A stretch of DNA of 64,000 bases from Shinella lacus (GCF_010994755.1 NZ_WHSB02000010.1:1-64000), one strand, 5' to 3'; positions 20,156-42,620 are shown, counted from the first letter of the stretch. Notes: generated from the letters alone by a model not told the origin. Numbers and translations are program-made.

Positions 20156-22102
20156 TCAGTGTTCGGCGGCGAACATCGGCCCGCCCTTGTGCGCGGGGAA
20201 GCCGTAGCCGTTGATCATCACCAGGTCGATGTCGCCGGGGCGGGCGGCGATGCCCTCCGCGAGTAGCACCGTTCCTTCATCGACCATCGCCTTGAGAAGA
20301 CGCTCCATGATCTCCTGCGCGGTGAACGCGCGGGGCGCGATGTTTTTCGCGGCCCGTGCCGCTTCGATCGCTGCGGTCACGGCGGGATCGATGATGCGCT
20401 CGCCATTGGGGTAGGCGTACCAGCCGAGGCCGGTCTTGCGGCCGAGGCGGCCGGCTTCGCAGAGCCGGTCGGCGATTTCGACATAGCGCTCGGCGGGATC
20501 ACGCGTTGCGGCCTGCCGCTTGCGCCGTGCCCAGGCGATTTCGAGGCCCGCCATGTCGTTGACGGCGAAGATGCCCATCGGAAAACCGTAGGCTTCCAGC
20601 GCGGCATCGATCTCGTGCGGCAGGGCACCATCCTCCAGCATGAACTCCGCCGCGCGGCGATAGGCGGAGAAGATGCGGTTGCCGATAAAACCTTCGGTGA
20701 CGCCGCAAACGATGGGAAGCTTGCCGAGGCGTTTGACGAAGGAAAGCGCGCTCGCCAGCACGTCGGGCGCGGTCTTGGCGCAATCGACGACTTCCACCAG
20801 CCGCATGACATGGGCGGGCGAGAAGAAATGCAGGCCGACCACGCGGGATGGATCGGCCGTCGCGGCGGCGATCGCATCGGGATCGAGATAGCTCGTATTG
20901 GTCGCCAGAATGGCGTCTGGTCCGACGATGGCGTCGAGCCTGCGAAACAGCTCCGTCTTGACGGAGAGGTCGTCGAAGACGGCTTCCAAGACGAGGTCGG
21001 CTGCCGCAAGGTCTGTCGCCTCGGTCGTTGTTCCGAGCCGGGCAAGGCAGGCCTCGCGCGCCTCCGTGCTCAGTCGCCCGGACTGAGCGGCCTTGTCGAG
21101 GATGCCGGCGATGCGCGCGCGCCCGGCGGCGGCGGCCTCCTGCGTCTGTTCCAGCGCGATGACGCGGTAACCGCTGGTAAGCGCCGAGACCGCGATGCCG
21201 GAGCCCATCAGCCCAGTGCCGACGATCCCGACGGTTTCGATCCGGCGTGGCGAGACGTCAGTGAGTTTTTCGACCTTGCCGGCAGCGCGCTCGGCAAAGA
21301 AGACATGCCGCAGGGCCGCGGATTCTGAGGAGTCGCGCAAACGCAGAAACGTGGCGCGTTCCTCCGCCAAACCCTTGTCAAGGTCGAGTTGGCTCGCCGC
21401 CCTGACGAGGCGGGCGGCCTCCGCGGGCGCCAGCTGGCCGCGGCTTCTGGCAAGCACCTTTGCTTCCGCGGCGTCGATGGCGGCGGCATCCGCGGCGGGA
21501 ACATCGATGCTGCCGGTCCGGCGCAGCGGCTGCCCGGCGCGTAGAACCGTGACGGCTGCGGCGACAGGGTCGGCGACGACGGTATCGGCAAGGCCGAGCG
21601 CGACGGCTTCGCGCGCCTTGACCGCGCGTCCCGTTCCGATGAGATCGATGGCGGCGATCGGGCCGATCAGGCGGGGCAGGCGCTGTGTCCCGCCGGCGCC
21701 CGGAACGATGCCGAGTTTCACCTCCGACAGGCCGAACGAGGCGTTCTCGCCGGCAATGCGGCCATGGCAGGCAAGGGCCACTTCGCAGCCGCCGCCAAGT
21801 GCCGCGCCGTCGACGGCGCAGACGACCGGTTTTTCGAAGGCTTCGATACGCTCGACCACTTGGGGAAGTGTCGGCTCGACCATCGGCTGGCCGAACTCCT
21901 TGATATCCGCCCCGCCGATGAAGGTGCGGCCGGTGCCGGAGATGACCATGCCCGTAATGTGTGCGGTCGCCGCGGCATGATCCAGCGCCGCCAGCAGGCC
22001 GGCCCTGACATGCGCCGACAGGGCGTTGACGGGCGGATTGTCGATGGTGAGGACGAGCACGCCCCCCTCAAGGCGGGCGGAAACGCTTTGCGAAAAACGC
22101 AT
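20156..22102 (-). CDS. Enoyl-CoA hydratase / 3-hydroxyacyl-CoA dehydrogenase fusion, C-terminally short (648 aa)
   Basis: A crotonase domain (about 1-190) has GADIKEFG, ALGGGCEVALACHGRI and SEVKLGIVPGAGGTQRL, so both catalytic glutamates are present. Residues about 285-648 are 3-hydroxyacyl-CoA dehydrogenase with NAD motif VGIVGTGLMGSGIA, catalytic-type VVGLHFFSPAHVM, and the two C-terminal helical domains. The protein stops at GYGFPAHKGGPMFAAEH, where relatives continue for some tens of residues. The ATG at 22102 has GAGG upstream; a GTG five codons earlier overlaps the RidA stop. It is the last gene of the anthranilate operon and probably hydrates and oxidises ring-derived CoA esters. Confidence 0.85.
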   Translation of the reverse strand: MRFSQSVSARLEGGVLVLTIDNPPVNALSAHVRAGLLAALDHAAATAHITGMVISGTGRTFIGGADIKEFGQPMVEPTLPQVVERIEAFEKPVVCAVDGAALGGGCEVALACHGRIAGENASFGLSEVKLGIVPGAGGTQRLPRLIGPIAAIDLIGTGRAVKAREAVALGLADTVVADPVAAAVTVLRAGQPLRRTGSIDVPAADAAAIDAAEAKVLARSRGQLAPAEAARLVRAASQLDLDKGLAEERATFLRLRDSSESAALRHVFFAERAAGKVEKLTDVSPRRIETVGIVGTGLMGSGIAVSALTSGYRVIALEQTQEAAAAGRARIAGILDKAAQSGRLSTEAREACLARLGTTTEATDLAAADLVLEAVFDDLSVKTELFRRLDAIVGPDAILATNTSYLDPDAIAAATADPSRVVGLHFFSPAHVMRLVEVVDCAKTAPDVLASALSFVKRLGKLPIVCGVTEGFIGNRIFSAYRRAAEFMLEDGALPHEIDAALEAYGFPMGIFAVNDMAGLEIAWARRKRQAATRDPAERYVEIADRLCEAGRLGRKTGLGWYAYPNGERIIDPAVTAAIEAARAAKNIAPRAFTAQEIMERLLKAMVDEGTVLLAEGIAARPGDIDLVMINGYGFPAHKGGPMFAAEH

Positions 22103-22113
22103 TTCGGAAAGCC

Positions 22114-22509
22114 TCACGCGGGAATGACGGCCGTGGCCTGGATCTCGATCTTGGCGCGGTCCTCGACAAGCGCCACCACCTGCATGGCCGCCATGGCGGG
22201 ATAATGCCGGCCGATCGTATCGCGATAGGCCTGGCCGATGCCGCGCAGGTTGCCGAGATATTCCTGCTTGTCGGTGAAATACCAGGTCATCGTCGTGATG
22301 TGGTGCGGTTCGCCGCCGCCTGCCGCGAGCACGGCCACGACGTTCTTCAGCGTCTGGTGCACCTGCTCAACGAAATCGTCGGTTTCGAACTCGCAGCGTT
22401 CGTTCCAGCCGATCTGGCCGCCGACGAAGAGCGTGCGACCGGTCGCCGCCACGCCGTTGGCATAGCCGATAGGTTTTGCCCAGCCTTCAGGTTGCAGGAT
22501 GGTGTGCAT
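22114..22509 (-). CDS. RidA family protein (131 aa), candidate enamine/imine deaminase of the anthraniloyl-CoA pathway
   Basis: A RidA/YjgF-type trimeric fold: GVAATGRTLFVGGQIGWN at the start, QVHQTLKNVVAVLAAGGGEPHHITTMTWYFTD in the middle and AMAAMQVVALVEDRAKIEIQATAV at the end. The usual RidA arginine position is replaced by MQVVALVEDRAKIEIQATA, so substrate choice may differ from canonical RidA. GGAG precedes the ATG at 22509. It lies inside the operon for 2-aminobenzoyl-CoA dearomatisation, whose first product carries a 2-amino-ene group. A dedicated enamine-hydrolysing role is therefore attractive; this is inference. Confidence 0.8.
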   Translation of the reverse strand: MHTILQPEGWAKPIGYANGVAATGRTLFVGGQIGWNERCEFETDDFVEQVHQTLKNVVAVLAAGGGEPHHITTMTWYFTDKQEYLGNLRGIGQAYRDTIGRHYPAMAAMQVVALVEDRAKIEIQATAVIPA

Positions 22510-22579
22510 GAGGCGTCTCCAGCTTTTGTGTCTGTGCGGCGCGGATGTCGTCCGGCCTGGCAAGTAACTTGGCGTGTGG

Positions 22580-22618
22580 TCAGTTGCGCTTGCGAAGCGA
22601 ACGGAGCCTGAAATGCAT
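22580..22618 (-). CDS. Possible 12-residue basic micro-ORF between operon genes
   Basis: ATG at 22618 preceded by a near-perfect GGGAGGT ribosome site 7 nt away, then MHFRLRSLRKRN and TGA. It fills part of the 123-bp gap between the acyl-CoA dehydrogenase stop and the RidA start, the only sizeable gap in this tight operon. It could be translated, be a leader controlling RidA, or be the relic of a longer gene. No homologue is known to me. Confidence 0.35.
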   Translation of the reverse strand: MHFRLRSLRKRN

Positions 22619-22632
22619 GTCGGCACCTCCCG

Positions 22633-23808
22633 TTATCGTGCGGCGTCCTTCATCAGTTCGCGGCCGATGATGAGCTTTTGAACCTCCGTCGCGCCCTCGT
22701 AGATGCGCAGCGCCCGGATTTCGCGGTAAAGCCGCTCCGTGATCTCTCCGGTGCGCACGCCCCGGCCGCCGAAAAGCTGGAGCGCCTGGTCGATGACCCA
22801 TTGGGCGTTTTCCGTTGCGGTCATCTTCGCCATCGCGGCTTCGCACGTCGTCGGCAGCTTCTGCACGTCGCGCCTCCAGGCGGTGCGGCAGGTGAGGAGG
22901 GCTGCGGCGTCGATGGCGGTCGCCATTTCGCCAAGCGTGCTTTGCGCCGTCGGTAGATCGGCCAGCGTCGCGCCGAACATCTTGCGGCTTTTGGCATGCG
23001 CGACGGCTTCATCGAGCGCCCGGCGGGCAAAGCCGGTGGCGGCCGCGGCGACGGAGGGGCGGAAGATATCGAGCGTGCGCATAGCGATCTTGAAGCCTTC
23101 GCCGGAGCTGCCGAGACGCTGCGCGGCGAGGATGCGGCAGTTTTCGAAGCGGATGCGGGCCAGCGGATGCGGCGCGATCGTCTCGATGCGCTCGGCAATC
23201 GTAAAGCCTGGCGTATCTGCGAAGACGACGAAGGCGGAAATGCCGCGCGTGCCGGGTGCCTCGCCGGTGCGGGCGAAGACCGTGTAGACGTCGGCGATGC
23301 CGCCGTTGGAAATCCAGGTCTTTTCGCCATCGAGCACGAAATCGTCGCCGTCGCGCCGGGCGGCGCAGGCCATGGCGGCGACGTCCGATCCCGCATCGGG
23401 TTCGGAAAGGGCGAAGGCGGATATCCATTCACCGGCCGCGACCTTGGGTAGGATGCGTTCCTTCAGTGCCTGCGAACCGGACAGGCTGATCGCGCCGGTG
23501 CCGAGGCCCTGCATGGCGAAGGCGAAGTCGGCGAGGCCATCGGCATAGGCCAGCGTCTCGCGCACGAGGCAAAGCGCCCGGCTGTCGATCTCTTCGCTCG
23601 CGCCGCCGAACGCTTTTGGCACGCAGTGGCGAAGTAGGCCGGCGGTGCCGAGTGCTGCGACCAGACGCCGGCAGGCGGCGTCGACATTGCCGTGATCGAC
23701 GCCGTCGAGGCCGCCCTTGGCTACGAAGCTGTCGAGGTCTTTTGCAAGCGCGCGATGGCTCTCGTCGAAGAACGGCCAGTCGAGATGGTCGCGGGTGGGC
23801 GCGCGCAT
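22633..23808 (-). CDS. Acyl-CoA dehydrogenase (391 aa)
   Basis: Standard ACAD layout: a helical N-terminal domain, then the beta domain with [18 protein letters not shown] and [21 protein letters not shown]. The C-terminal helices have [43 protein letters not shown], in which the glutamate of YEGATE is the usual catalytic base. FAD-dependent alpha,beta-dehydrogenation of a CoA ester. The ATG at 23808 is at the family start; a 45-residue upstream extension only mirrors the neighbouring gene. Two nucleotides separate it from the crotonase gene, so they are cotranscribed. The likely substrate is an alicyclic CoA ester of the anthranilate route. Confidence 0.87.
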
Positions 23809-23810
23809 GG

Positions 23811-24653
23811 TCAGTTTCCCTGGAAGGCGGGTTTCGCCTTGGTGGCAAAGGCTTCGAAGGCGCGCTGGAAATCGCCCGTCGCCATGCAGATCGCCTGGGC
23901 CTGCGCCTCCGCCTCGATCATCTGGTCGATGCCCATCGCCCATTCCTGGTCGAGCATCTTCTTCGTCATCGCATGGGCGAACCAGGGGCCGTCGGCGACG
24001 GTGCGGGCGAATTGTTGTGCTTCGGCCAGCAGCGCGGGACGCTCGTGCAGGGCGTTGTAGAAACCCCAGTTCAGACCTTCCGCCGCGCTCATGACGCGGC
24101 CGGTAAAAAGCAGTTCGGCGGCGCGGCCCTGGCCGATGATGCGGGGAAGGATGCCGCAGGCGCCCATATCCGCGCCGGCTAGCCCGACGCGGGTGAAGAG
24201 GAAGGCGGTCTTGGCTTCCGGCGTCGCGACGCGGAAATCGGCGGCCATGGCCAGGATGGCGCCGGCGCCGGCGCAGATGCCGTCGACGGCGGCGATGATC
24301 GGCTGCGGGCAGGCGCGCATCTGGCGCACCAGCTCGCCCGTCATGCGGGTGAAGTCGAGGAGGTCCGGCATTTCCATGCGCGTCAGCGGCTCGATGATCT
24401 CGAACACGTCCCCGCCGGAGGAAAAGTTGTCCTTCGCGCCGGCCAGCACCACGGCGCGCACGTCGCTGGCGCGCGTCAGCGAGCGGAAAAGATCGCCGAG
24501 CTCTTCATAGCTTTCGAAGGTCAGCGGGTTCTTCTTGTCCGGGCGGTTGAGCGTGATCGTCGCGACGCGGCCGTCGGCATCCGTTTCGAACAGGAAGTGC
24601 TTTGCTGCGTGGTCCTTGAAGGGGCGTTTCTTGGCCTGCATGGGGTTCGTCAT
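23811..24653 (-). CDS. Crotonase (enoyl-CoA hydratase/isomerase family) lacking both canonical glutamates (280 aa)
   Basis: The crotonase fold is clear: [39 protein letters not shown] for the CoA/oxyanion loop, and [47 protein letters not shown]. Where hydratases have GGGCELA and PEI/PEV-x-LG, this protein has GAGAILA and [13 protein letters not shown], so both hydratase glutamates are absent by eye alignment. An aspartate (GADMG) could act instead. It may therefore be a hydrolase, ring-opening enzyme or isomerase rather than a hydratase. It is encoded between SDR and acyl-CoA dehydrogenase genes of the anthranilate operon. Confidence 0.82.
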
Positions 24654-24664: not shown

Positions 24665-25435
24665 CTAGAGAACTTCGCCGCCGGCGACCGCAATGGCCTG
24701 GCCGGTGATTGCTGTCGCCTTTTCCGAGACGAGCCAGGAGACGGTGTGGGCCACCTCGCCGGGCGTCACCAGCCGGCCCTGCGGGTTGGCGCGGGCGAGG
24801 CTGGCGCGGGCGTCCTCGCGCGTGCGGCCGGTCTTCTGGCTGATCGTGTCGAGCGCGCCGTCGATGAGCGGCGTGTCGGTGAAACCGGGGCAGACGGCGT
24901 TGACGGTGACATCGGTGCGCGCAAGCTCAAGTGCCAGCGCCCGTGTCAGGCCAATGACGCCATGTTTGGAGGCGCAATAGGCGGACACATAGGCATAGCC
25001 GGTGAGGCCCGCCGTGCTCGCGACATTGACGATCCGGCCGTTTCCGGCCCGACGCACGGAGGCGAGGGCCGCATGCGTGACCAGGTAGACGCCCGTCAGG
25101 TTGATGGTGAGGACCCGCTGCCAGAGCGCGAGATCGGTCTTTTCGAACGGTGCCGAGGGCGCCTCGCCGGCGCAATTGACGAGGACGGCGATGTCGCCGG
25201 CTTCAGCGATGGCGGCCGCAAGGCCGCGCTCAACGGAAGCAGCGTCGCTAACGTCGAATCCTTCATGCACGAAGGCTTCCCCGCCCGCCGCGCGGACCTC
25301 GTCCCGCAAGGCCTGCAAGGGGGCTGTGCGCCGCCCGGCGAGGCTTACGACATGACCGTCGGCCGCCAAGGCGAGCGCGATCGCTTTTCCGATGCCGCTT
25401 CCGGCGCCTGTGACGAGGGCGTGCCGCTTGCTCAT
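24665..25435 (-). CDS. Short-chain dehydrogenase/reductase (256 aa), 3-hydroxyacyl-CoA or alicyclic alcohol type
   Basis: Classical SDR: nucleotide motif TGAGSGIG at residues 10-17, VNCAGEAP for NNAG, a serine in VNVASTAG, catalytic YCASK, and PGFTDTP after it. It resembles acetoacetyl-CoA reductase and 3-hydroxybutyrate dehydrogenase types. The ATG overlaps the upstream stop as ATGA, so it is translationally coupled to the monooxygenase/reductase gene. It probably oxidises or reduces the ring 5-oxo/hydroxy group after dearomatisation; the substrate is inferred from context. Confidence 0.85.
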
Positions 25436-27753
25436 GGCTTGCCCGCCGTCGTTGCTGCGCGGGCGAGGTTGTTGACATATTGCGCCCGGGCGGAGTGGTA
25501 TTGTTTCGGCCAGGGCTGGCCGTCATAGCCAATTCGCGCCGCTTCGTGCAGCACGAAGGACGGATCCGCCAGATGCGGGCGGGCGACGGCGCAGAGGTCC
25601 GCCCGGCCGGCCGCGATGATCGAATTGGCGTGGTCGGCCTCGGAAATCGCACCCACGGCGATGGTCGGCACCTGGATTTCGTTGCGGATCTTGTCGGAGA
25701 AGGGTGTCTGGAACAGGCGGCCGTAGACCGGCCTCTCCTCCTTCACCACCTGGCCGGACGAGCAGTCGATCAGGTCAGCGCCGGCCTCCTTGTACAGACG
25801 GGCGAAAATGGCGGCATCCTCGGGCGTATTGCCGCTCTCGTGCCAATCATGGGTCGACAGGCGTACCGAGATCGGTTTGTCTTCGGGCCAAATCTTGCGG
25901 ATGGCGTGGAACACTTCGAGCGGGAAGCGGGCGCGGGCCGCATGGTCGCCGCCGTAGTCGTCGGTGCGCGTGTTGGTCAATGGCGACAGGAAGCTCGACA
26001 GCAGGTAGCCGTGCGCCGCGTGCAGTTCGAGGATGTCGAAGCCGATGTCGCGGGCTCGTTCGGTGGCTCGCACGAAGTCCTGAATGACGCGGTCCATGTC
26101 CGCCCGGGTCATTTCGCGCGGCGTTTGCGAATGCGGGAGATAGGGCAGGGCCGAAGCCGAGATCAGCGGCCAGCCTCCTTCGGCGAGCGGCTGATCGATG
26201 CCTTCCCAGGCGAGTTTCGTGGCGCCTTTGCGCCCGGCATGGCCAAGCTGGAGGCCGATCTTGGCCGGCGTCTGGTGATGGACGAAATCGACGATGCGCT
26301 TGAAGGCCTGCGCCTGTTCGTCGTTCCACAGGCCAAGGCAGCCGGGCGTGATGCGCGCATCGGCCGACACGCAGGTCATTTCCGGAAACACGAGCGCGGC
26401 ACCGCCCATGGCGCGGGAGCCGAGATGCACCAGATGGAAATCACCCGCCAGCCCGTCCGTCGCCGAATACATCGCCATTGGCGAGACCACGATGCGATTG
26501 CGGAGCGTCAGGCCGCGGATCTTGAAGGGCGTGAACATCGGCGGCGGGACCGCGCCGTTTGCCATGGGTTCGGCGCCGGCCCGTTCGGCGAACCAGCGCT
26601 CGAAACCTTCCAGCCAGTCCTTGTCGCGCAGGCGAAGATTCTCGTGGCTGATGCGCTGCGAGCGGGTCAGCATCGAATACATGAACTGCTCGGGCTCCAG
26701 GGTATCGGCATAGCGCGTGCCGACGACCTCGAACCATTCCATGGCGTTGCGCGCCGCATTCTGGATGCGCGCCACGTCGATGCGGCGCACGTCCTCGTAG
26801 GCGGCAAGCACGGCGGGGATGTTGGCCTTGTCATGGCCGAGGATGTCGAACTGCCGGGTCAGCTCGATCGCATCGTCGATGGCGAGCTTGGTTCCCGAGC
26901 CGATGGCGAAATGGGCGGTGTGGGCGCTGTCGCCCATCAGCACGACATGGCTGCGGCCGTTGAAATGGCTCCACTTGTCGCAGATCAGCCGGCCGAAATT
27001 AAGCCAGGCGGAGCCGCGCATGTGCCGCGCATTGGTCATCAGGCTTTGGCCGTCGAGGGTTTCCGCAAAAAGCTTTTCGCAGAAGGCGATGGACTGATCC
27101 TGGTCCATCTGGTCGAGCCCGTGTGCCTTGAAAACCTCGTCCGTGGTCTCGACGATGAAGGTCGAGGTCGTGTCGTCGAAGCGGTAGATATGTGACTGGA
27201 ACCAGCCGTGTTCGGTGCGCTGGAAATCGAAGGTGAAGGCGTCGAACAGCTTGTTGGTGCCGAGCCAGATATAGCGGTTCGGCCGCATGACCATGTCGGG
27301 TCGGAAGACCTCGGCATATTTGTTGCGGATGCGCGAATTGACGCCGTCGGAGGCGATGATGAGGTCGGCATCGGCGAATTCCGCGTCGCTTTCCACGTCG
27401 CGCTCGAAGAGCAGTTCGACGCCGAGTTCCAGGCAGCGTTCCTGCAGGATGTTGAGCATCTTGCGGCGGCCGATGCCGACGAAGCCGTGGCCCGAGGTGC
27501 GGATCTTGCGGCCCTTGAACACCAGCTCGATATCGTCCCAATGGTTGAAGGAGACTTCGATGGCTTCCGCCGTCTCCGGATCCCATCGGCGCATCGACTG
27601 CATGGTGGCGTCGGAAAACACGACGCCCCAGCCGAACGTGTCGAAAGCCCGGTTGCGCTCGACGACAGTGACGTGATGGTCCGGATGCTGGCGCTTCATC
27701 AGCAGCGCAAAGTAGAGCCCGGCAGGCCCGCCGCCGATACAGACAATCCGCAT
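25432..27753 (-). CDS. 2-aminobenzoyl-CoA monooxygenase/reductase (bifunctional, 773 aa)
   Basis: The N-terminal part (about 1-385) is an FAD aromatic hydroxylase: [20 protein letters not shown], then [14 protein letters not shown] and [20 protein letters not shown]. The C-terminal part (about 405-773) is an Old Yellow Enzyme-type FMN barrel: [51 protein letters not shown], and [28 protein letters not shown]. This fusion distinguishes it from salicylyl-CoA 5-hydroxylase, which lacks the reductase. The known reaction hydroxylates anthraniloyl-CoA and reduces the ring to 2-amino-5-oxocyclohex-1-ene-carbonyl-CoA. The ATG at 27753 has GGGAGGA upstream. It is the first gene of the operon. Confidence 0.92.
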
Positions 27754-27810: not shown

Positions 27811-27828
27811 AATTTCAAGCTTAAAATT
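27811..27828. promoter_or_regulatory. Candidate MarR-type operator upstream of the anthraniloyl-CoA operon
   Basis: AATTTCAAGCTTAAAATT, an 18-bp near-palindrome (one mismatched pair), lies 58 bp upstream of the monooxygenase/reductase ATG and 80 bp from the stop of the MarR gene. A 15-of-18 match occurs at 41693-41710 in the CoA ligase/formamidase divergent promoter. Size and symmetry suit a MarR dimer; the assignment to this MarR is inference. Confidence 0.6.
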
Positions 27829-28433: not shown

Positions 28434-28500
28434 TGCCAACACCCGCTTTCATGTCGCCTAGCCTTTTAGAGATGTTTCGGGCTCTTGGACAGGCCGTGCG

Positions 28501-29265: not shown

Positions 29266-29296
29266 CAAGTTCCCTTAGCGTCTCCCTGTGATGCAG

Positions 29297-29343
29297 ACAA
29301 ATATATATAGTTCTGCGCGTTACGCAAAACTATATATATTTGT
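29297..29343. promoter_or_regulatory. 47-bp palindromic operator between the GntR gene and the importer operon
   Basis: Arms ACAAATATATATAGTT (29297-29312) and AACTATATATATTTGT (29328-29343) are perfect inverted repeats of 16 bp. The 15-bp centre adds TGCG/CGCA pairing around CGTTA. The right arm touches the -35 box of the importer promoter. The near-complete symmetry suggests a GntR operator, perhaps for two dimers, controlling both directions. Confidence 0.75.
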
Positions 29344-32182: not shown

Positions 32183-32197
32183 TCCAAGGACGACCTT

Positions 32198-34432: not shown

Positions 34433-35119
34433 TCAGACGCCGAGATAGCGGTCCTGAAGCTCCGGTGTCAGGGCCGTCGGCGCGCCTACGAAAACCGTCG
34501 TGCCCTTCTCCAGCACGAAGCATCTGTCCGCGACGGGCAGCAATTCAGAGAGCGTCTTGTCGACGACGAGGATCGACTGGCCGGCGGCCTTCAGCTTGCG
34601 GATCGCCGACCAGATGTCCTGCCGGATGACCGGCGCCAGACCTTCGGTCGCCTCGTCGAGAATGAGGAGGCGCGGGTTTGTCATCAGCGCGCGGCCGATG
34701 GCGAGCATCTGCTGTTCGCCGCCGGAGAGCGTCCTGGCATATTGGTCGCGCCGCTCGCCGAGGCGAGGAAAGAGATCGACGACCTTGTCGAAGGTCCACT
34801 CGCTGCCGCGGGCCGTGGCGATGAGGTTCTCCAGGACCGTCAGGTTGGGAAAGCAGCGCCGTCCCTCCGGCACCAGGCCGAGGCCGAGCCTGGCGATACG
34901 GTAGGGTCGCATGCCGAAGATCGCCTTGCCGGAAAAGCGGATCACGCCGGAGCGCGGGCGCACGAGGCCAATGATCGAGTTGATCGTCGTCGTCTTGCCC
35001 ATGCCGTTGCGCCCCATCAGCGCGACCACTTCGCCCTCGCGAATATCGAGATCGACGCCGAACAGCGCCTGCGAGGCGCCGTAGAAGGTTTCAAGGCCTT
35101 TCAGGTCGAGGAGGGTCAC
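34433..35119 (-). CDS. livF: Branched-chain-type ABC importer ATP-binding protein LivF-like (228 aa)
   Basis: Walker A GRNGMGKTT, signature TLSGGEQQMLAIGRAL, Walker B LLILDEATEGLAP and LSELLPVADRCFVLEKG for the H-loop region (here VDKTL, so the H-loop histidine appears replaced). LivF type by length and by GLVPEGRRCFPNLTVLENL. The GTG start overlaps the LivG stop. Last gene of the minus-strand operon; its stop lies 3 bp from the end of the converging dehydratase gene, with no room for a terminator. Confidence 0.9.
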   Translation of the reverse strand: MTLLDLKGLETFYGASQALFGVDLDIREGEVVALMGRNGMGKTTTINSIIGLVRPRSGVIRFSGKAIFGMRPYRIARLGLGLVPEGRRCFPNLTVLENLIATARGSEWTFDKVVDLFPRLGERRDQYARTLSGGEQQMLAIGRALMTNPRLLILDEATEGLAPVIRQDIWSAIRKLKAAGQSILVVDKTLSELLPVADRCFVLEKGTTVFVGAPTALTPELQDRYLGV

Positions 35120-35865
35120 GCGGCTTCTCCGAGATAGGCGCGGCGCACTTCGGGGTCGCTGCGGATTTCATCGACCGTGCCCGTCGCGATGATGCGGCCA
35201 TAGACGAGCACAGATATGCGGTCTGCCAGCGCAAAGACCGCATCCATGTCATGCTCCACCAGCAGCATCGGTGTCTCGTGGCGCAAGCCGTCGAGGAACG
35301 AGGTCAACTGCTTGGAGCTTTCCGGCCCCATGCCCGCCATGGGCTCGTCGAAGAGAAAGGCTTTTGGCGAAAGCGCGAGCGCGATGGCGATTTCGAGCTG
35401 CCGGCGCTCGCCGTGGGAAAGTTCCGCCGCCGGCACATGGGCGCGGGCGGCAAGGCCGACACGCTCCAGCATGGCCATGGCGGGATCGATCAGGCTGCGG
35501 TCGCTCGCCACCTGCCGGAAGAACCGGAAGCTGCTGCCCTGCCTGGACTGCACCGCCAGCATAACGTTGCGAAGCGCGGAGAACTCCTGCGCGAGCGACG
35601 AAATCTGGAAGCTGCGCGCAAGGCCGAGCCGCGCACGCGCCGCCATGTCGAGCCCGCCGATGTCCTGCCCCAAGAAGCGGATCGTACCGCTGTCGGCCGC
35701 AAGCGAGCCGGCGATCTGGTGGATGAGCGTGCTTTTGCCCGCACCATTCGGGCCGATCAGGGCGTGGATCTGGCCGGGATAGAGGTCGAGGCTCACCCCG
35801 TCCGTGGCCTTCAGCGCGTTGAAGGATTTGCGCAAATCGCGGATTTCGAGAATGGGCTCAGGCAT
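35116..35865 (-). CDS. livG: Branched-chain-type ABC importer ATP-binding protein LivG-like (249 aa)
   Basis: Walker A GPNGAGKST, signature ELSHGERRQLEIAIALAL, Walker B FLFDEPMAGMGP and H-loop LVEHDMDAVFALADRI. The LSHGERRQLE form is typical of LivG. The ATG at 35865 lies within the end of the LivM gene (8-bp overlap); the 38-residue upstream extension is out of family. Confidence 0.92.
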   Translation of the reverse strand: MPEPILEIRDLRKSFNALKATDGVSLDLYPGQIHALIGPNGAGKSTLIHQIAGSLAADSGTIRFLGQDIGGLDMAARARLGLARSFQISSLAQEFSALRNVMLAVQSRQGSSFRFFRQVASDRSLIDPAMAMLERVGLAARAHVPAAELSHGERRQLEIAIALALSPKAFLFDEPMAGMGPESSKQLTSFLDGLRHETPMLLVEHDMDAVFALADRISVLVYGRIIATGTVDEIRSDPEVRRAYLGEAA

Positions 35866-36829
35866 GACGCGGCTTTCCCGAGAGCAGGCCCAAAAGCCCG
35901 CCGCGTGCGAAGAGCACGATGCCGAGCAGGATGAGGCCGAGGAAGAACTGCCAGCGCTCGGTGATGCCGCCGAGCACATATTCGAGGCAGACGAAGATCA
36001 TCGCGCCGGCGACGGGCCCGAACAGCCGCCCCTTGCCGCCGAGGATGATGAGCACGATCAGCTCGCCCGACATGTGCCAGGAAAACATGGAGGGGCCGAC
36101 GAACCGGTTGAGATCGGCATAGAGCGCGCCGGCAAAACCGGTGATCATCGCGGAGAGAACGAAGGCGACAAGCCAGATGTTGAAGGGCGCGATGCCGACC
36201 GCGGCAAGCCGCGTGCCGTTCTGCCGCGCCGCCTGCAGGGCGCTGCCGAAGCGCGAGCCTTCGACAAGCCGGAACAGCAGCAGCGTCGCCATCAGGACGG
36301 TAAAGCAGGCCAGGAAATACGGCAGGGGCTGCGTGGTGTTGATGCCGGGGAAGGCGTTGCGCACGTAAATCGACAGGCCGTCCTCGCCGCCATAGGCCGG
36401 CCAGGAGATGGCGAAGTAGTAGATCATCTGCGCGAAGGCGAGCGTGATCATGATGAAGTAGATGCCGGTGGTGCGCAGGCTGATGATGCCGATGGGCAGC
36501 GCGACGAGCCCGGCGATGACCACGGCCGTCAGCCAGATGATGGGCATCGACGTCGTGCCGGGAATGCCGGCCACCAGCGGCTCGGCGTTGAAGGCGTGCG
36601 TCGCCAGGATGCCCGCGACATAGCCGCCGAGGCCGAAGAACGCAGCATGACCGAAGGAAATCAGCCCGCCGAGCCCGAGCGCCAGGTTGAGGCCGGTGGC
36701 GGCGAGTGCCAGCACGACGACGCGGGTCGCGAGCGTGACGTAGAAGGGTTCTCCCAGCCCCGCGGCCGCTAGCGGCATGGCGAGCAGGAGGAGGGCGAGC
36801 AGCAGGTTGATCGTGGTTTCGCGAGTCAT
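35858..36829 (-). CDS. livM: Branched-chain-type ABC importer permease LivM-like (323 aa)
   Basis: About nine to ten helices, with LNLALGLGGLISFGHAAFFGLGGYVAGIL near the N-terminus and SRFGSALQAARQNGTRLAAVGIAPFNIWLVAFVLSAMITGFAGAL as the EAA-type ATPase-coupling loop. The ATG at 36829 has GAGGACAAG upstream, so the 23-residue extension is not used. Partner of the LivH-like permease encoded 7 nt upstream. Confidence 0.9.
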   Translation of the reverse strand: MTRETTINLLLALLLLAMPLAAAGLGEPFYVTLATRVVVLALAATGLNLALGLGGLISFGHAAFFGLGGYVAGILATHAFNAEPLVAGIPGTTSMPIIWLTAVVIAGLVALPIGIISLRTTGIYFIMITLAFAQMIYYFAISWPAYGGEDGLSIYVRNAFPGINTTQPLPYFLACFTVLMATLLLFRLVEGSRFGSALQAARQNGTRLAAVGIAPFNIWLVAFVLSAMITGFAGALYADLNRFVGPSMFSWHMSGELIVLIILGGKGRLFGPVAGAMIFVCLEYVLGGITERWQFFLGLILLGIVLFARGGLLGLLSGKPRHA

Positions 36830-36836
36830 CTTGTCC

Positions 36837-37796
36837 TCACGACTGCGCCGCGAACAGGCCGCTCGGCCTGAAGGCGAGGATGAGTGCCATGACGACATAG
36901 ATCAGCATCGAGGCCAGGGCCGCGCCGATCGTGGTGGCCTGCGCGGCGGGCATCGTCAGCGCGAGAAGCGAGGGCAGCAGGAAGCGGCCCATCGTGTCGA
37001 CGACGCCGACGATCATCGCGCCGACGAGGGCGCCCTTGATCGAGCCGATGCCGCCGATGACGATGACCACGAAGGCGAGGATGAGCACGGGTTCACCCAT
37101 GCCGACCTGGACCGACTGGAGGGCGCCGACCAGCGCGCCGGCAAAACCCGCCAGTGCGGCGCCGAGCGCGAAGACCACAGTATAGAGCGTGCTGATATCG
37201 ACGCCGAGCGCCGCGATCATCTCGCGGTCGGATTCGCCGGCGCGAATGCGCATGCCGAGCCGGGTTTTCGAGATGAGGAGATAGAGCCCCGCCGCAACCG
37301 CGATGCCGACGGCGATGATCGCCAGGCGGTAGAGCTGGTACTGGCCGCCGCCCGGCAGGGGCACTGCGCCCTGAAGCTGCGGGGGAATGTCAAGATAGAG
37401 CGGGAACGAGCCGAAGACCCAGCGTGCGCCTTCCGAGAGGATCAGGATCAGCGCGAAGGTGGCGAGCACCTGGTCGAGATGGTCGCGGTCGTAGAGCCGG
37501 CGGATGACGGCGACCTCGATGAGGGCGCCGACGCCGGCTGCGGCGGCGAGGCTCGCGATCAGGCCGAGCCAGAACGAGCCGGTGGCCGCGGCGACCGTCG
37601 CGCAGGCAAAGGCGCCGATCATGTAGAGCGAGCCATGCGCCAGGTTGATGAGGCCCATGACGCCGAAGATCAGCGTCAGGCCGGCGGCCATCAGAAACAG
37701 CATCACGCCGAGCTGAAGCCCATTGAGCAATTGTTCGATCAGGAGTGCGGTGAACACGGCGTCGGTCCAAGCTTCAGGTCGGGATCGCGTGGGCAT
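36837..37796 (-). CDS. livH: Branched-chain-type ABC importer permease LivH-like (319 aa)
   Basis: About eight helices: IEQLLNGLQLGVMLFLMAAGLTLIFGVMGLINLAHGSLYMIGAF is the classical LivH start, and SKTRLGMRIRAGESDREMIAALGVDISTLYTVVFALGAALAGFAGAL is the coupling loop. The annotated ATG lies 2 nt beyond a strong hairpin and has no clear ribosome site. A GTG at 37757 (VFTALLIEQLLNG) fits the family start better and may be the real one. Confidence 0.88.
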   Translation of the reverse strand: MPTRSRPEAWTDAVFTALLIEQLLNGLQLGVMLFLMAAGLTLIFGVMGLINLAHGSLYMIGAFACATVAAATGSFWLGLIASLAAAAGVGALIEVAVIRRLYDRDHLDQVLATFALILILSEGARWVFGSFPLYLDIPPQLQGAVPLPGGGQYQLYRLAIIAVGIAVAAGLYLLISKTRLGMRIRAGESDREMIAALGVDISTLYTVVFALGAALAGFAGALVGALQSVQVGMGEPVLILAFVVIVIGGIGSIKGALVGAMIVGVVDTMGRFLLPSLLALTMPAAQATTIGAALASMLIYVVMALILAFRPSGLFAAQS

Positions 37797-37797
37797 C

Positions 37798-37831
37798 GTC
37801 CGGGCGCCGGCAGAAAAGCCGGACGCCGGAC
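37798..37831 (-). repeat. Intercistronic hairpin between livK-like and livH-like genes
   Basis: GTCCGGGCGCCGGC and GCCGGACGCCGGAC form a 14-nt stem with a 3-base internal mismatch around AGAAAA. It directly follows the binding-protein gene. Like the hairpin at 30424, it probably raises binding-protein mRNA over permease mRNA. Confidence 0.55.
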
Positions 37832-37850
37832 AACAGGACGTGCGAGGGCG

Positions 37851-38987
37851 TTACAGGCCGCACTGTTCGGCGTAGGCGTCCTTGTGGTTTTCGAAGGCGG
37901 TCGCGACGATCTTGTTGGTCAGCACGTCGCCATCCTTCACCACCTCGCGCACATAGATGTTCTGGATCGGGTGCTGGTTGGTGTTGAAGGAAAACGTGCC
38001 GCGCACGGACTTGAAGTCCGCGGCCTTCAGCGCCGCCTTGAAGGCGTCCTTGTCCTTGGCGCTCGCCTTGGAAAGCGCCGACAGGATCAGGTTTGCCGTG
38101 TCCCAGCTCTGCGCGGCGTAGATCGACGGCAGGCGGTTATATTCGGCCTTGAAGCTTTCGACGAAGGCCTTGCTGGCCTCGTTTTCGAGGTCCGGCGACC
38201 AGCTGGCGGAGTTCTTCACGCCGAGTGCCGCGTCGCCGACGGCTGGCAGCACGTCCTGGTCGAAGGAGAAGCTCGGCCCCATGACCGGAATGCCGACGCC
38301 GGACTGGGCATATTGTTTCATGAAGGCGATGCCCATGCCGCCGGGCAGGAAGAAATAGACGGAATCGGCGCCGGATGCGCGGATCTGCGCGATCTCCGCC
38401 GCATAGTCCGTCTGGCCGACTTGGGTATAGACCTCGCCGGCGAGACTGCCCTTGTAGAAGCGCTTGAAGCCGGTCAGCGCATCCTTGCCGGCGGGATAGT
38501 TCGGCGCGAGGATGAACGAGTTCTTGTAGTCCTGGTTGGCGTACTGGCCCATCGCCTCGTGGAAGTTGTCGTTCTGGTAGGCGACGTTGAAGTAGTTCGC
38601 ATTGCAGTTCGCACCGGCCAGCGCCGACGGGCCGGCATTGGGCGAGAGGTAGATCACATCCTGCGCCACCGCATTCGGCACCACGGCCATGGCAAGGTTC
38701 GACCAGATGATCCCCGTCATGAGATCGACCTTGTCGCCCTGGATCATCTTTTCCGCGATCTGCACCGCAAGTTCCGGCTTCTGGGCATCGTCCTCGATCA
38801 CCAGTTCCACGTCCTTGTTGCCCGACTGTTTGATCGCCAGCGTAAAGGCGTCGCGCATGTCGATGCCGAGGCCGGCGCCGCCGCCGGAAAGCGTGGTAAT
38901 CACGCCGATCTTCACCGGCTCGGCATGGGCGAGGCCGGATGTCGCGAGCGAGAGGCCGAAGAGGCTTGCTGCCAGAATGCGGTTCAT
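37851..38987 (-). CDS. Branched-chain-type substrate-binding protein, probable aromatic/kynurenine ligand (378 aa)
   Basis: Signal peptide MNRILAASLFGLSLATSGLAHA, then a Peripla_BP_6 fold: VKIGVITTLSGGGAGLGIDMRDAFTLAIKQSG, VQIAEKMIQGDKVDLMTG, ILAPNYPAGKDALTGFKRFYKG and AAQSWDTANLILSALSK. Type I binding proteins of this group next to aromatic degradation genes usually bind aromatic acids rather than leucine. It is encoded 40 nt downstream of tryptophan dioxygenase, so anthranilate, kynurenine or tryptophan are candidates. TGAGGAGAACAGC precedes the ATG. Confidence 0.88.
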   Translation of the reverse strand: MNRILAASLFGLSLATSGLAHAEPVKIGVITTLSGGGAGLGIDMRDAFTLAIKQSGNKDVELVIEDDAQKPELAVQIAEKMIQGDKVDLMTGIIWSNLAMAVVPNAVAQDVIYLSPNAGPSALAGANCNANYFNVAYQNDNFHEAMGQYANQDYKNSFILAPNYPAGKDALTGFKRFYKGSLAGEVYTQVGQTDYAAEIAQIRASGADSVYFFLPGGMGIAFMKQYAQSGVGIPVMGPSFSFDQDVLPAVGDAALGVKNSASWSPDLENEASKAFVESFKAEYNRLPSIYAAQSWDTANLILSALSKASAKDKDAFKAALKAADFKSVRGTFSFNTNQHPIQNIYVREVVKDGDVLTNKIVATAFENHKDAYAEQCGL

Positions 38988-39027
38988 GCTGTTCTCCTCA
39001 TTATGGTTCGATTTTTATCGTGTTCTA

Positions 39028-39864
39028 TCAAAGATCCGTACGCACATGCCATAGTTCGGGGAAGAGCTCCACCTCGAGCATCTTCTTGAGATAGGAGGCG
39101 CCGGACGTTCCGCCCGTGCCGCGCTTGAAGCCGATGATGCGTTCGACTGTCGTGACGTGGTTGAAGCGCCAGCGCCGGAAATAGTCCTCGAAGTCAACCA
39201 GCTTCTCCGCAAGCTCGTAGAGCATCCAGTAGCGCTCCGGATTGCGATAGACGGTCTGCCAGGCCGCAAAGACCTTGTCGTTCTCGCTGCGCGTCTCGCG
39301 CCAATCGCTGCGCCCGGCCTCGTCGCCGACATCGAAGCCGTTGCGTGCCAGAAGCCGGATCGCCTCGTCATAGAGCGACGGGGCGGCGAGGATCGCCTCC
39401 AGCTTTTCCAGGATTTCGGGGCGATGGGCGTGCGGGCGCAGCATGGCGAGGTTGCGATTGCCGGCCGAAAATTCGATCGCCCGATACTGCCAGGACTGGA
39501 AGCCGGACGACTGTCCGAGCGAATCCCGGAACTCGGTATATTCGCTGGGCGTCATCGTGCGCAGCACGTCCCAGGCATTGTTCAACTGCTCGAAAATGCG
39601 CGCGACCCGCGACAGCATCTTGAAGGCCGGCTCCAGCCGGTCCTCGCGGATCGAGCGGATCGCCGAGCTGATCTCGTGCAAGGCAAGCTTCATCCAGAGC
39701 TCGGAGGTCTGGTGCTGGATGATGAACAGCATCTCGTCATGCGCCTGCGAAAGCGGCGCCTGCGCGGTGAGGACCTTCTCCAGCTTGAGATAGTCGCTGT
39801 AGGACATGCGCCCCTCGAACGACATTTGTGCGCCTTCCTTCGAAGGGTCGTATGGGTCGCTCAT
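39028..39864 (-). CDS. kynA: Tryptophan 2,3-dioxygenase (278 aa)
   Basis: All-helical heme dioxygenase. [20 protein letters not shown], then [25 protein letters not shown] with the substrate-side histidine, [14 protein letters not shown], the heme-ligand histidine in [34 protein letters not shown], and [12 protein letters not shown] at the end. Length and ending are those of bacterial TDO. It opens the indole ring to N-formylkynurenine. One base separates it from the CoA ligase stop upstream, so they are cotranscribed. Confidence 0.96.
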
Positions 39865-39865: not shown

Positions 39866-41485
39866 TCAGTGCTCCGCCCGCAAACGGAATCGCTGGATCT
39901 TGCCCGTCGCGGTCTTCGGCAGGGCCTCGACGAACTTCACCGAGCGGGGATATTTGAAGGGCGCGATCGTCGCTTTCACGTGATCCTGCAGGCGCTTGAT
40001 CGTCGCCTCGTCCGCGAGCACGCCGGCGGTCAGCACGACATAGGCTTCCACGATCTGGCCGCGCTCGGTGTCCGGCGCGCCCACCACCGCGCATTCCGCC
40101 ACTTCCGGGTGCGCGATCAGCGCCGCCTCGACCTCGGGGCCGGCGATGTTGTAGCCGGCGGTCACGATCATGTCGTCGGAGCGGGCCGCGAAATGGAAGA
40201 AGCCGTCCTCGTCCTGGAAGAAGGCGTCGCCGGTGATGTTCCAGCCGTCGCGGACATAGTCGCGCTGGCGGGAATCGGCCATGTAGCGGCAACCGGTCGG
40301 CCCGCGCACGGCGAGCTTGCCGACGGTGCCGCGCGGCACTTCGCGCATCTCGTCGTCGACGATCCTCGCCTCATAGCCGCCGACCGGTTTGCCGGTGGAG
40401 GCGGCCTTGCGGTCCTCGAAGCGGTTGGAAATGAAGATGTGCAGCATCTCGGTGGCGCCGATGCCGTCGAGGATCGGCTTGCCGGTCTTCTCGGTCCATT
40501 CCTCGAAGATCGGGCCGGGCAGCGTCTCGCCCGCCGAGATCGCGACGCGCAGCGACGACAGGTCCGCGCCGGCATCCATCGCCTTCAGCATGGCCCGGTA
40601 GGCCGTGGGCGCGGTGAACGAGATCGTCGCCTTGTAGGTCTCGATGATCTCCACCATCAGCGCCGGCGTCGCCTGTTCGAGCAGCGTCGCCGCCGCCCCG
40701 AAGCGCAGCGGGAAAATCGCAAGGCCACCCAGGCCGAAGGTGAAGGCGAGCGGCGGCGAACCGACGAAGACGTCCTCCGGCGTCACGCCGAGAACTTCCC
40801 GGGCGTAGCCGTCGGCGATCGCCATCAGGTCACGGTGGAAGTGCATGGTCGCCTTTGGCACGCCGGTCGTGCCGGAGGTGAAGCCGAGAAGCGCCACGTC
40901 GTCGCGGCCGGTCGGCACGGCGTCGAAGCGCACCGGTTTGTCGAGGGCGATCCGGTCGAGTTCGGCATCGTGGTTCGCGGTCCCGTCGAAGCCGACGACC
41001 TGCTTCAGATGGCGGCTGTCCTTGGCGCAGGCGATCATCTCGTCCATCAGGCGCGTGTCGCACAGCGCCAGGCTGATCTCGGCCTTGTCGACGATCTTGG
41101 TGAGTTCGCCGGCGCGCAGCATCGGCATCGTGTTGACGACGACGGCGCCGGCCTTGGTGGCGGCGAGCCAACAGGCGACCATGGCCGGGTTGTTGGCCGA
41201 GCGGATGAGAACGCGGTTGCCCGGCTTCACGCCGTAATTCTCGACCAGCGCATGGGCCAGCCGGTTGGTCCAGTCGGAGAGTTCCTTGTAGGTCCGGCGG
41301 CGCCCGTTGCCGATGAGCGCGGTGCGGTCGCCGACCCCCTTTGCGACCATCGCATCCGTCAGTTCGACGGCGGCGTTGAGGCGGTCGGGATAGTCGAAAC
41401 CGTCGAGCAGGAAATCCGGCCATTCCTGCGGTGGCGGCAGGTTGTCGCGTGTGAACGTGTCGACATGTGCGGTCGGTCCAAGCAT
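39866..41485 (-). CDS. 2-aminobenzoate (anthranilate)-CoA ligase, benzoate-CoA ligase family (539 aa)
   Basis: ANL-superfamily adenylating enzyme: P-loop [33 protein letters not shown] (A5), [40 protein letters not shown] (A7-A8) and [13 protein letters not shown] with the A10 lysine. The long N-terminus before the fold and the [10 protein letters not shown] core are of the benzoate/2-aminobenzoate-CoA ligase type. It should make anthraniloyl-CoA for the monooxygenase/reductase at 25432. The ATG at 41485 is preferred over one 16 codons upstream; neither has an ideal ribosome site. Confidence 0.9.
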
Positions 41486-41692
41486 GTGGCGGCCATCCCC
41501 CTGTTCGTGTCGCGCCTGTTGTTCAGGCTGCATCGGCTAGATTTTTTACGGTCGCGTTGGCGCGGGCGGCCAGGCGCGGCTTCGCCGAGCCGACGGGCCA
41601 TGTCGTCGCGGAAATGTCATCGATTGTGATGGGCACAGCGAAGACCTCCACTTCTGCGCTGAACATGGTGCAGCATCGCATCAGTCAAAAAT

Positions 41693-41710
41693 TATTTCAA
41701 GCCTAAAGTT
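41693..41710. promoter_or_regulatory. Second copy of the candidate MarR operator, in the ligase/formamidase divergent promoter
   Basis: TATTTCAAGCCTAAAGTT matches the 27811 site at 15 of 18 positions and keeps the central TTTCAAGCNTAAA. It lies about 80 bp before the formamidase-like ATG and about 208 bp before the ligase ATG. The region 41486-41789 has no other gene. Confidence 0.55.
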
Positions 41711-41789
41711 TTTTGCTGACGGCATTGCCTTTGGCCGCCGTCCGGGTGATTTCTATGTCGTCGGCCACATCAACGGGAGGGATGCAACG

Positions 41790-42620
41790 ATGCTGGAATA
41801 CCGCATTTCGGACTGGGACAACGCCTATGCAAACGGGGTGAACATCCCGCGCGGCGATCGATGGCCGGAGGCCTGGGTCACGCCCGCCGAGACATTCCGA
41901 AGCGCGCTGCTGTCGGCCGGCCGCGCAAAACTCGACCTTGCCTATGGCGAGCGCCCGAGAAACCGCATGGACCTCTTTCTCCCGGAAGGTCCGGCCAAGG
42001 GCTTGGTCGTCTTCGTGCATGGCGGATTCTGGCTGCAGCTCGACAAGAGCTTCTGGTCGCATCTGGCCGCAGGCGCCGTCGCCAGCGGTTATGCGGTCGC
42101 CATGCCCTCCTACACGCTGTGCCCGGAGGTTCGCATCGCGGAAATCGTCAGGGAGGTCGCGGCGGCCATCACCGAAGCAGCAGGACTGGTCGAGGGACCG
42201 CTGATCCTGACCGGGCATTCGGCCGGCGGCCATCTCGCCAGCCGGATGATCACCACGACGGCGCCGCTGGCGCCACAGGTTCAGCAACGCATCCGCAACG
42301 TCGTCTCGATTTCAGGCCTGCACGACCTGCGCCCCCTCCTGTCGACCGCCATGAACGAAAGGCTCGCCATCGACGAAGCGGAGGCGCTTGCGGAAAGCCC
42401 GGCGCTGCTGCGGCCTATGAGAGACGCCCGCATCACCTGCTGGGTGGGCGGAAGCGAGCGCCCGGAATTCCTGCGCCAGAACGCCCTGCTCGCCAATATC
42501 TGGACGGGACTGGGCGCCACAACAGCGACGATCGTCGAGCCGGACAGGCACCACTTCACCATCAACGACGGCCTCGCCGACCCGGCACATGCCCTGACGC
42601 GAACCCTGCTGTCGGTGTGA
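41790..42620 (+). CDS. Alpha/beta hydrolase, probable kynurenine formamidase of the AFMID type (276 aa)
   Basis: HGGFWLQLDKSFW (HGGxW oxyanion motif), LTGHSAGGHLA with the nucleophile serine, GSERPEF in the acid loop and DRHHFTI with the histidine. The HGGxW plus GHSAGxHL combination is that of animal and bacterial arylformamidases rather than the metal-dependent KynB. It is divergent from the ligase-TDO operon and supplies the only missing step between N-formylkynurenine and kynurenine. GGGAGGGATGCAACG precedes the ATG. Confidence 0.8.
   Translation: MLEYRISDWDNAYANGVNIPRGDRWPEAWVTPAETFRSALLSAGRAKLDLAYGERPRNRMDLFLPEGPAKGLVVFVHGGFWLQLDKSFWSHLAAGAVASGYAVAMPSYTLCPEVRIAEIVREVAAAITEAAGLVEGPLILTGHSAGGHLASRMITTTAPLAPQVQQRIRNVVSISGLHDLRPLLSTAMNERLAIDEAEALAESPALLRPMRDARITCWVGGSERPEFLRQNALLANIWTGLGATTATIVEPDRHHFTINDGLADPAHALTRTLLSV

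Follow-up and report, generated by a model that had tools for sequence, protein, structure and literature searches.

Bacterial kyn operons encode tryptophan 2,3-dioxygenase (TDO), a formamidase and kynureninase (KynU), which convert tryptophan to anthranilate. The organism of the characterised aerobic, coenzyme A (CoA)-dependent anthranilate pathway is Azoarcus (Aromatoleum) evansii, whose abm clusters were reportedly described by Schuhle et al. in 2001. It holds two similar abm clusters in one genome (PMC8388817). In Arthrobacter sp. Rue61a, anthranilate enters via a CoA ligase and an enzyme of the type of the fused 2-aminobenzoyl-CoA monooxygenase/reductase (ACMR), as supported by liquid chromatography-mass spectrometry of CoA esters (PMC3534580). 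Here, both routes were found joined in one block at positions 20156-42620 of a 64,000-nucleotide stretch of Shinella lacus (GCF_010994755.1, NZ_WHSB02000010.1:1-64000), hereafter the window. The block is a kynurenine module, comprising TDO, a formamidase, KynU, a TrpX-type importer and a GntR regulator, together with an Azoarcus-type abm operon. The abm part holds the ligase, a Liv-type importer, a MarR regulator, ACMR, a short-chain dehydrogenase/reductase (SDR), a crotonase, an acyl-CoA dehydrogenase, a Rid protein and a FadJ-like fusion. The block very probably imports tryptophan (or kynurenine) and anthranilate and degrades both via anthraniloyl-CoA, as suggested by the following sequence comparisons.

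ACMR combined FAD_binding_3 and Oxidored_FMN domains, that is, a flavin monooxygenase and an old-yellow-enzyme reductase, in a single chain. It scored 1347 bits against NF006101 (cut-off 1078) and was 73% identical over its full length to the orthologue of A. evansii KB740. In that strain (locus L081), ACMR, SDR, crotonase, acyl-CoA dehydrogenase and RidA followed in the same order as in the window, with MarR and ligase elsewhere in the cluster. The window ligase exceeded the cut-off of the benzoate-CoA ligase family TIGR02262 with 383 against 375 bits. Its nearest solved chain was the anthranilate-CoA ligase 4wv3 with 308 bits, compared with 265 bits for the benzoate enzyme 2v7b. By sequence only, it would be the anthranilate-CoA ligase expected of an abm cluster. 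TDO and KynU both exceeded the curated cut-offs of TIGR03036 and TIGR01814, as expected of kynurenine pathway enzymes. These matches support the claim of the earlier note of a physical link between the kynurenine route and aerobic, CoA-dependent anthranilate breakdown. A genome search gave neither KynB nor 3-hydroxyanthranilate dioxygenase above cut-off. Family searches of the block gave no ring-cleaving dioxygenase besides TDO; no search for gentisate dioxygenase was made in the rest of the genome.

The locus differs from each of the described systems. Unlike the window, the A. evansii piece held no TDO, KynU, TrpXYZ or formamidase, and a search of its genome gave no TDO; two abm clusters per genome are a shared trait (PMC8388817). 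The Arthrobacter pathway shares the entry via CoA ligase and ACMR-type enzyme, but it is fed by quinaldine breakdown, and kynurenine has 0 occurrences in the available text (PMC3534580). Unlike in bacterial kyn operons, the exit in the window is a CoA ligase and ACMR within the block, and the formamidase is of the alpha/beta-hydrolase type instead of KynB. The features of the block are as follows, with positions counted from the first letter of the window.

20156..22117, minus strand: FadJ/FadB-like fusion of enoyl-CoA hydratase and 3-hydroxyacyl-CoA dehydrogenase (ECH_1, 3HCDH_N and 3HCDH; FadJ model 409 bits, below the cut-off of 869)
22114..22509, minus strand: Rid-superfamily protein with Met at the Arg105 position (PF01042; residue counts, alignment and AlphaFold model)
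22490..22564, minus strand: 25-residue 3' tail of a probably lost 4HBT thioesterase gene (tblastn, 72% identity to the twin-operon gene)
22633..23943, minus strand: acyl-CoA dehydrogenase, true start probably at about 23808 (Acyl-CoA_dh_N/M/1)
23811..24653, minus strand: crotonase of PRK08258 type, candidate ring-opening (retro-Claisen) hydrolase or hydratase (NF006107 467 bits, cut-off 330)
24665..25435, minus strand: SDR oxidoreductase (adh_short)
25432..27753, minus strand: ACMR (two domains; NF006101)
27813..27826, no strand: conserved palindrome ahead of ACMR, putative MarR operator (1 mismatch to TTTCAAGCTTGAAA)
27909..28442, minus strand: MarR-family regulator (PF12802/PF01047)
28501..29268, minus strand: GntR/FCD regulator, likely of the kynurenine module (PF00392 and PF07729; with TrpX/KynU in the ACMR-less pieces L125, L129 and L148)
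29300..29308, no strand: AT palindrome whose TATATAT core is invariant, candidate GntR site 1 (11 GntR-TrpX intergenic regions aligned)
29328..29338, no strand: AT palindrome whose TATATATA core is invariant, candidate GntR site 2 (same alignment)
29426..30412, plus strand: TrpX-like substrate-binding protein of an ATP-binding cassette (ABC) importer (PF04392; NF041285 172 bits, below the cut-off of 390)
30474..31253, plus strand: TrpZ-like ABC ATPase (family search)
31259..32182, plus strand: TrpY-like ABC permease (family search)
32198..33445, plus strand: KynU (TIGR01814 364 bits, cut-off 246)
33461..34429, plus strand: pyridoxal phosphate (PLP)-dependent fold-II enzyme, threonine-dehydratase-like (PF00291)
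34433..35119, minus strand: LivF-type ATPase, anthranilate importer by neighbourhood (family search; with ACMR and without kynurenine genes in L018, L022, L041 and others)
35116..35979, minus strand: LivG-type ATPase, true start probably at about 35865 (family search)
35858..36898, minus strand: LivM-type permease, true start internal (family search)
36837..37796, minus strand: LivH-type permease (family search)
37851..38987, minus strand: LivK-type substrate-binding protein (PF13458)
39028..39864, minus strand: TDO (TIGR03036 432 bits, cut-off 391)
39866..41485, minus strand: anthranilate-type CoA ligase (TIGR02262; nearest solved chain 4wv3)
41695..41708, no strand: further copy of the palindromic site, in the ligase-formamidase interval (motif search)
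41790..42620, plus strand: alpha/beta hydrolase, probable kynurenine formamidase of AFMID type (family and structure matches; neighbours)

Open reading frames and family profile searches confirmed every gene that the earlier note had named, namely TDO, the formamidase-type hydrolase, KynU, the ligase, ACMR, SDR, crotonase, acyl-CoA dehydrogenase, RidA, the FadJ-like fusion, two importers and two regulators. The PLP enzyme gene at 33461-34429 had not been named; it reached no NCBIfam cut-off among the 22 models listed. A simple codon scan was wrong at 31373-33241 on the minus strand and 36777-39089 on the plus strand, where family searches gave TrpY/KynU and the Liv genes, respectively. The likeliest starts were 27753 for ACMR (open reading frame to 27882), 22509 for RidA (open from 22626) and 41485 for the ligase (open from 41533). 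Strand and spacing suggest four putative transcription units. Two are on the minus strand, one with ACMR, preceded by GntR and MarR, and one running ligase-TDO-LivKHMGF; on the plus strand are TrpXZY-KynU-PLP and the formamidase.

The same block was present in 13 of 80 ACMR loci (L005-L017), named as Shinella, Ensifer/Sinorhizobium and Aminobacter; in L006 the TDO-ligase-Liv part lay on another contig. The 80 loci were the best of at least 583 confirmed ACMR stretches. Judged from these 13 named loci, the block is kept more than by chance, and the search for the same gene order in other genomes that had been proposed gave a positive outcome. In two further loci, Mesorhizobium L019 and L055, the block occurred in another order and with another KynU lineage. 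A survey of 151 genomes of the family gave 89 with ACMR, 81 of them at 52% identity or more; the eight at 45-50% were excluded from the linkage count. KynU was present in 65 of the 81, TDO in 65, both in 63 and neither in 14, and KynU and/or TDO lay within 15 kb of ACMR in 39. The view of the joining as a rarity was rejected on this count, and it is a recurrent trait of the family. Of the 81 genomes with ACMR, 65 carried TDO, compared with 8 of the 70 others (Fisher p 2.8e-18, without correction for relatedness). A quick KynU tree was built from 37 rows, with identical copies left out and linkage labels assigned by hand; in it, ACMR linkage changed at least five times, three of them forced by well-supported branches. 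A literature search covering few subscription papers, with sources seen in part, found no description of the joined block or of the deamination step considered below. The joining is recurrent and apparently little described, and the enzymes themselves are of known kinds.

Gene order elsewhere separates the two modules. The anthranilate operon of Phyllobacterium L018 ran uninterrupted as ligase, LivKHMGF, ACMR, SDR, crotonase, acyl-CoA dehydrogenase, RidA and FadJ. Compared with it, the window has TDO between ligase and LivK, and the divergent GntR/TrpXZY-KynU-PLP unit between LivF and MarR/ACMR. Both may be insertions into the anthranilate operon, as far as the direction of the rearrangement can be deduced. 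Liv genes accompanied ACMR in pieces without kynurenine genes (L018, L022, L025, L027, L028, L034 and L041), and TrpXYZ accompanied KynU in pieces without ACMR (L125, L129 and L148). Since Liv goes with ACMR and TrpXYZ with KynU, the most likely substrate is anthranilate for the Liv importer, and tryptophan or kynurenine for the TrpX-type one. The two importers announced by the earlier note were found, divided by module; TrpX itself belonged to PF04392 only and stayed below the cut-off of the curated tryptophan-importer model NF041285. A further unit placed the formamidase beside ligase-KynU-TDO, with ACMR near in L133 and L135 and not in the piece in L139 and L145. The PLP gene occurred in 11 of 80 ACMR loci, with the kynurenine module. 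Its position varied: it adjoined KynU in Shinella/Ensifer and lay between GntR and MarR in Aminobacter.

From these genes, their order, conservation and sites, we infer the following reactions. TDO, formamidase and KynU would convert tryptophan via N-formylkynurenine and kynurenine to anthranilate and alanine, with release of formate. The ligase would form anthraniloyl-CoA, and ACMR would hydroxylate and reduce the ring, yielding 2-amino-5-oxocyclohex-1-enecarbonyl-CoA. The Rid protein may then hydrolyse the ring enamine to 2,5-dioxocyclohexanecarbonyl-CoA and ammonia. Reduction by the SDR and ring opening by the crotonase in a retro-Claisen reaction would give a substituted pimelyl-CoA. Acyl-CoA dehydrogenase and the FadJ-like protein would carry out dehydrogenation, hydration and oxidation, followed by thiolysis with a thiolase such as the PcaF-type enzyme of the twin operon described below. 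Neither the thioesterase nor the PLP enzyme fits into this proposed route yet.

The earlier note had listed RidA as one gene more. The gene is indeed present, and across the 80 loci it was the commonest ACMR neighbour, found in 73, followed by SDR in 67, acyl-CoA dehydrogenase in 63, crotonase in 59 and FadJ in 47. Twenty further regions were chosen, 15 for a second ACMR clade, from 52 genomes at 52-58% identity, and five from relatives at 45-50%; nine of the 15 were extended. Rid was present in 12 of the 15, though exceeded by SDR with 15. That Rid might be a weak partner in the clade at 53-58% was rejected, since 5 of 15 became 12 of 15 once the pieces were extended. The five pieces with relatives at 45-50% contained no Rid. 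Locus L041 kept Rid though crotonase, acyl-CoA dehydrogenase and FadJ were replaced by a cupin and a fumarylacetoacetate-hydrolase-like gene. Such ACMR clusters without crotonase, acyl-CoA dehydrogenase and FadJ were annotated for L041 (13539-16860), with similar layouts in L024, L044, L050 and L059. In L041, the cupin and the fumarylacetoacetate-hydrolase-like gene came after Rid, and next to them an SDR and a hydrolase resembling the formamidase; this layout apparently represents another lower pathway.

The window protein matched PF01042, and its AlphaFold model (predicted local distance difference test 88) had Rid folds as top matches, placing it in the Rid superfamily. The active-site Tyr and Glu were kept in all 72 covered proteins. 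At the position of Arg105, 70 of 73 had Met and two had Ile, with one uncovered; in the second clade Met was found in 12 of 12. The alignment placed Met at this position in the window protein as well, and the arginine that marks a RidA imine deaminase was absent. The alignment comprised 20 proteins from 26 loci tried, some being without a clear start. Arg105 determines activity on imino acids (PMC5619798), and it is not kept in the subfamilies Rid4-7 (PMC4433059). The ACMR product, an enamine borne by a CoA thioester, has no free carboxylate, so loss of the arginine might mark a dedicated deaminase; it might equally mean loss of deaminase activity. A CoA ester of composition C7H8O4, possibly cyclohexanedione-carboxyl-CoA according to the authors, was present only in extracts of anthranilate-grown Arthrobacter (PMC3534580) and would be the expected product of deamination by Rid. 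A precedent for a dedicated deaminase in aromatic catabolism is 2-aminomuconate deaminase, a member of the Rid superfamily (PMC4433059, PMC6449761). The substrate proposed for the window protein is a CoA thioester, and in this it differs from its precedent. 2-Aminomuconate deaminase acts on the free acid. On balance there is roughly an even chance that the ACMR-linked Rid proteins form a dedicated subfamily, with the substrate-binding Arg changed to Met or rarely Ile. Its members would hydrolyse the ring enamine borne by the CoA thioester and thereby act as pathway enzymes, and not in damage control, in the nitrogen-releasing step of aerobic anthranilate breakdown.

The window lacked a thiolase, as the earlier note had stated: a thiolase search gave eight matches in the genome, none on the window contig C2. 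Its corollary, that the last steps must be encoded elsewhere, fits a second block in the same genome, on contig C16 at 22-54.5 kb (L085, L130). The kynurenine part of this twin comprised TrpXZY, formamidase, TDO and KynU, 52-76% identical to those of the window, and other Liv-type genes followed. It also held an amine-oxidase-like gene, an AraC gene and a UbiX-type flavoprotein. The twin then continued with ligase, MarR, ACMR, SDR, crotonase and acyl-CoA dehydrogenase (86-91%), a second acyl-CoA dehydrogenase and a 4HBT thioesterase, and ended with Rid (94%), FadJ (79%) and a PcaF-type thiolase (TIGR02430 657 bits, cut-off 597). Among the 80 ACMR loci, a thiolase followed FadJ in ten (L007, L008, L010-L013, L015, L016, L049 and L053), a thioesterase gene was present in 44 and a second dehydrogenase in 13. 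The record of L049 is titled Bacillus subtilis SK6B4, its cluster layout resembled that of Pseudochrobactrum L053, and it is probably contaminated or misnamed. Thiolase, second dehydrogenase and a whole thioesterase gene were all missing from the window operon. A 25-residue thioesterase tail overlaps the RidA start there, and no remnant of thiolase or second dehydrogenase was found in the window. As the tail survives and Shinella L005 and L014 keep the whole gene, the thioesterase gene was most likely lost from the window operon.

The block had been described as one regulated unit, and here the evidence points the other way. One copy of a palindrome, ATTTCAAGCYTAAARTT, precedes the ACMR start by about 60 bases, and another lies in the ligase-formamidase interval. 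A scan allowing at most 4 of 17 mismatches, with upstream pieces of at most 150 bases and duplicates left out, found it in 57 of 80 upstream pieces for ACMR, in 36 of 48 for the ligase (eight being the shared divergent ACMR site) and in 18 of 48 for MarR. The site of A. evansii had three mismatches. It was found upstream of TDO in 1 of 26 and of LivK in 2 of 26 loci, and not at all upstream of TrpX (0/19), KynU (0/36), SDR (0/67), RidA (0/72) or GntR (0/23); shuffled ACMR upstream pieces gave 0.4%. The bare 14-base form with three mismatches occurred five times in the window against 1.03 expected. Because 3 of 100 shuffles reached this count, the weight of the palindrome rests on position and conservation. 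In the GntR-TrpX region, two TATATAT cores were invariant across the window and the 10 of 13 block loci that were aligned. A site common to all three promoters was sought and none was found. With the palindrome before ACMR and between ligase and formamidase only, and not at TrpXYZ-KynU, the view of a single regulon was rejected. The block is probably not one regulated unit, and two regulons are probable. MarR and GntR are the likely regulators, in a regulator-site pairing that we infer: the MarR-type box would control the ACMR and ligase/formamidase promoters, and GntR most likely the TrpXYZ-KynU promoter.

The alpha/beta hydrolase scored above the NCBIfam model NF058665, 'hormone-sensitive lipase', with 367 bits (cut-off 320) and matched the kynurenine formamidase 4e11 more weakly (E 2.4e-15). 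It contained the HGG[FYW]W and GHS motifs. In a comparison that left out matches of at most 180 residues, 26 of 33 related genes, the window's included, adjoined TDO or KynU. It is a probable kynurenine formamidase of AFMID type.

Several observations weigh against the reading of the block as a tryptophan-to-anthraniloyl-CoA route. The NCBIfam name of NF006101 is bifunctional salicylyl-CoA 5-hydroxylase/oxidoreductase. In 42 of the 81 genomes, KynU and TDO were absent within 15 kb of ACMR, 14 of these having neither gene. The thioesterase gene accompanies ACMR in many loci and in the twin, yet the proposed route gives it no role. Cupriavidus metallidurans CH34, in which kyn and abm genes are both said to be present as in the window and no joined block is reported in the available text, does not grow on anthranilate (PMC8879955). 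The name of NF006101, together with the benzoate-CoA ligase family of the ligase, would suit a fusion and ligase acting on another ortho-substituted benzoate such as salicylate, or on benzoate, with the kynurenine genes as mere neighbours. The thioesterase would then be needed for the conversion of salicylyl-CoA to gentisate. However, the ligase was closest to an anthranilate-CoA ligase, TDO co-occurred with ACMR, and KynU/TDO were linked to ACMR or ligase in several KynU lineages. The near-constant Rid partner is expected where ring nitrogen needs release, the genes downstream of ACMR are beta-oxidation-like, and the window retains just the tail of the thioesterase gene. Salicylate as substrate is unlikely, and this rival reading as a whole, with the kynurenine genes as neighbours only, is highly improbable. 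For the hydrolase, genes of the same clade adjoined ligase and ACMR in L041, L054 and L056, three pieces that contain neither TDO nor KynU, and genome searches for L041 and L056 gave no TDO. The substrate could therefore be another N-acyl-anthranilate, which would make the enzyme an N-acylanthranilate amidase; the lipase name of NF058665 would suit an esterase. Against this stand the frequent neighbourhood of TDO or KynU, in two cases in pieces without ACMR or ligase (L129, L143), and the genome's lack of KynB above cut-off, so that TDO would otherwise have no partner. An amidase or esterase is rather doubtful for the window gene. In all, seven pieces lacking both TDO and KynU (L036, L041, L054, L056, L075, L076 and L078) had a formamidase-like hydrolase next to ligase and ACMR; these hydrolases are possibly N-acylanthranilate amidases.

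Similar caution applies to the Rid proposal and to the sites. Rid was missing from 7 of the 80 loci (four on pieces under 16 kb) and from 3 of the 15 in the second clade, and the window protein is without the Arg on which imine deaminase activity is said to depend (PMC5619798). The palindrome query was taken from the window, so its presence in close relatives comes from common descent; at four mismatches, 23 of the 80 pieces upstream of ACMR had no palindrome. RidA genes often stand beside PLP enzymes releasing 2-aminoacrylate (PMC4433059), and KynU and the threonine-dehydratase-like protein are PLP enzymes of the block, so Rid might serve as a general guard against 2-aminoacrylate instead of as a pathway enzyme. 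This is unlikely: Rid was present in 57 of 65 ACMR loci without KynU, that of A. evansii included, with one more cut by a contig end, and Arg105, held necessary for such imine hydrolysis, was replaced in nearly all proteins of both clades. As to the twin, a contamination estimate of 4.23% and its standing as the single two-copy case (at E 1e-250) among 21 genomes of the genus, of which eight have any ACMR, cast some doubt on C16. If it came from a contaminating strain, the genome would hold one block and no linked thiolase. The G+C content of the C16 pieces (0.652 and 0.626) was close to that of the window block (0.654) and its flanks (0.624 and 0.646), as a related contaminant would show too. 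We consider contamination improbable, and with a thiolase after FadJ in ten of the 80 loci, the thiolase-ending operon type stands whatever the origin of C16.

The surroundings of the block held further features. Beside the formamidase, 42675-46060 encodes aspartate 4-decarboxylase and an aspartate-alanine antiporter, both above curated cut-offs. A caspase-domain (Peptidase_C14) protein flanks the block on each side, at 14731-16923 and 46249-49950. At 19066-19656, adjoining an HbpS-like gene, lies a ROK-family frame whose match is confined to the C-terminal half of the profile (136-291 of 294).

These findings suggest that tryptophan catabolism is organised around anthraniloyl-CoA in much of the family, including plant- and soil-associated genera. 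They offer a testable answer to how the amino group may leave the dearomatised ring and predict a shared regulatory site. If the assignment holds, annotators should read NF006101 proteins of this clade as ACMR and not as salicylyl-CoA hydroxylases.

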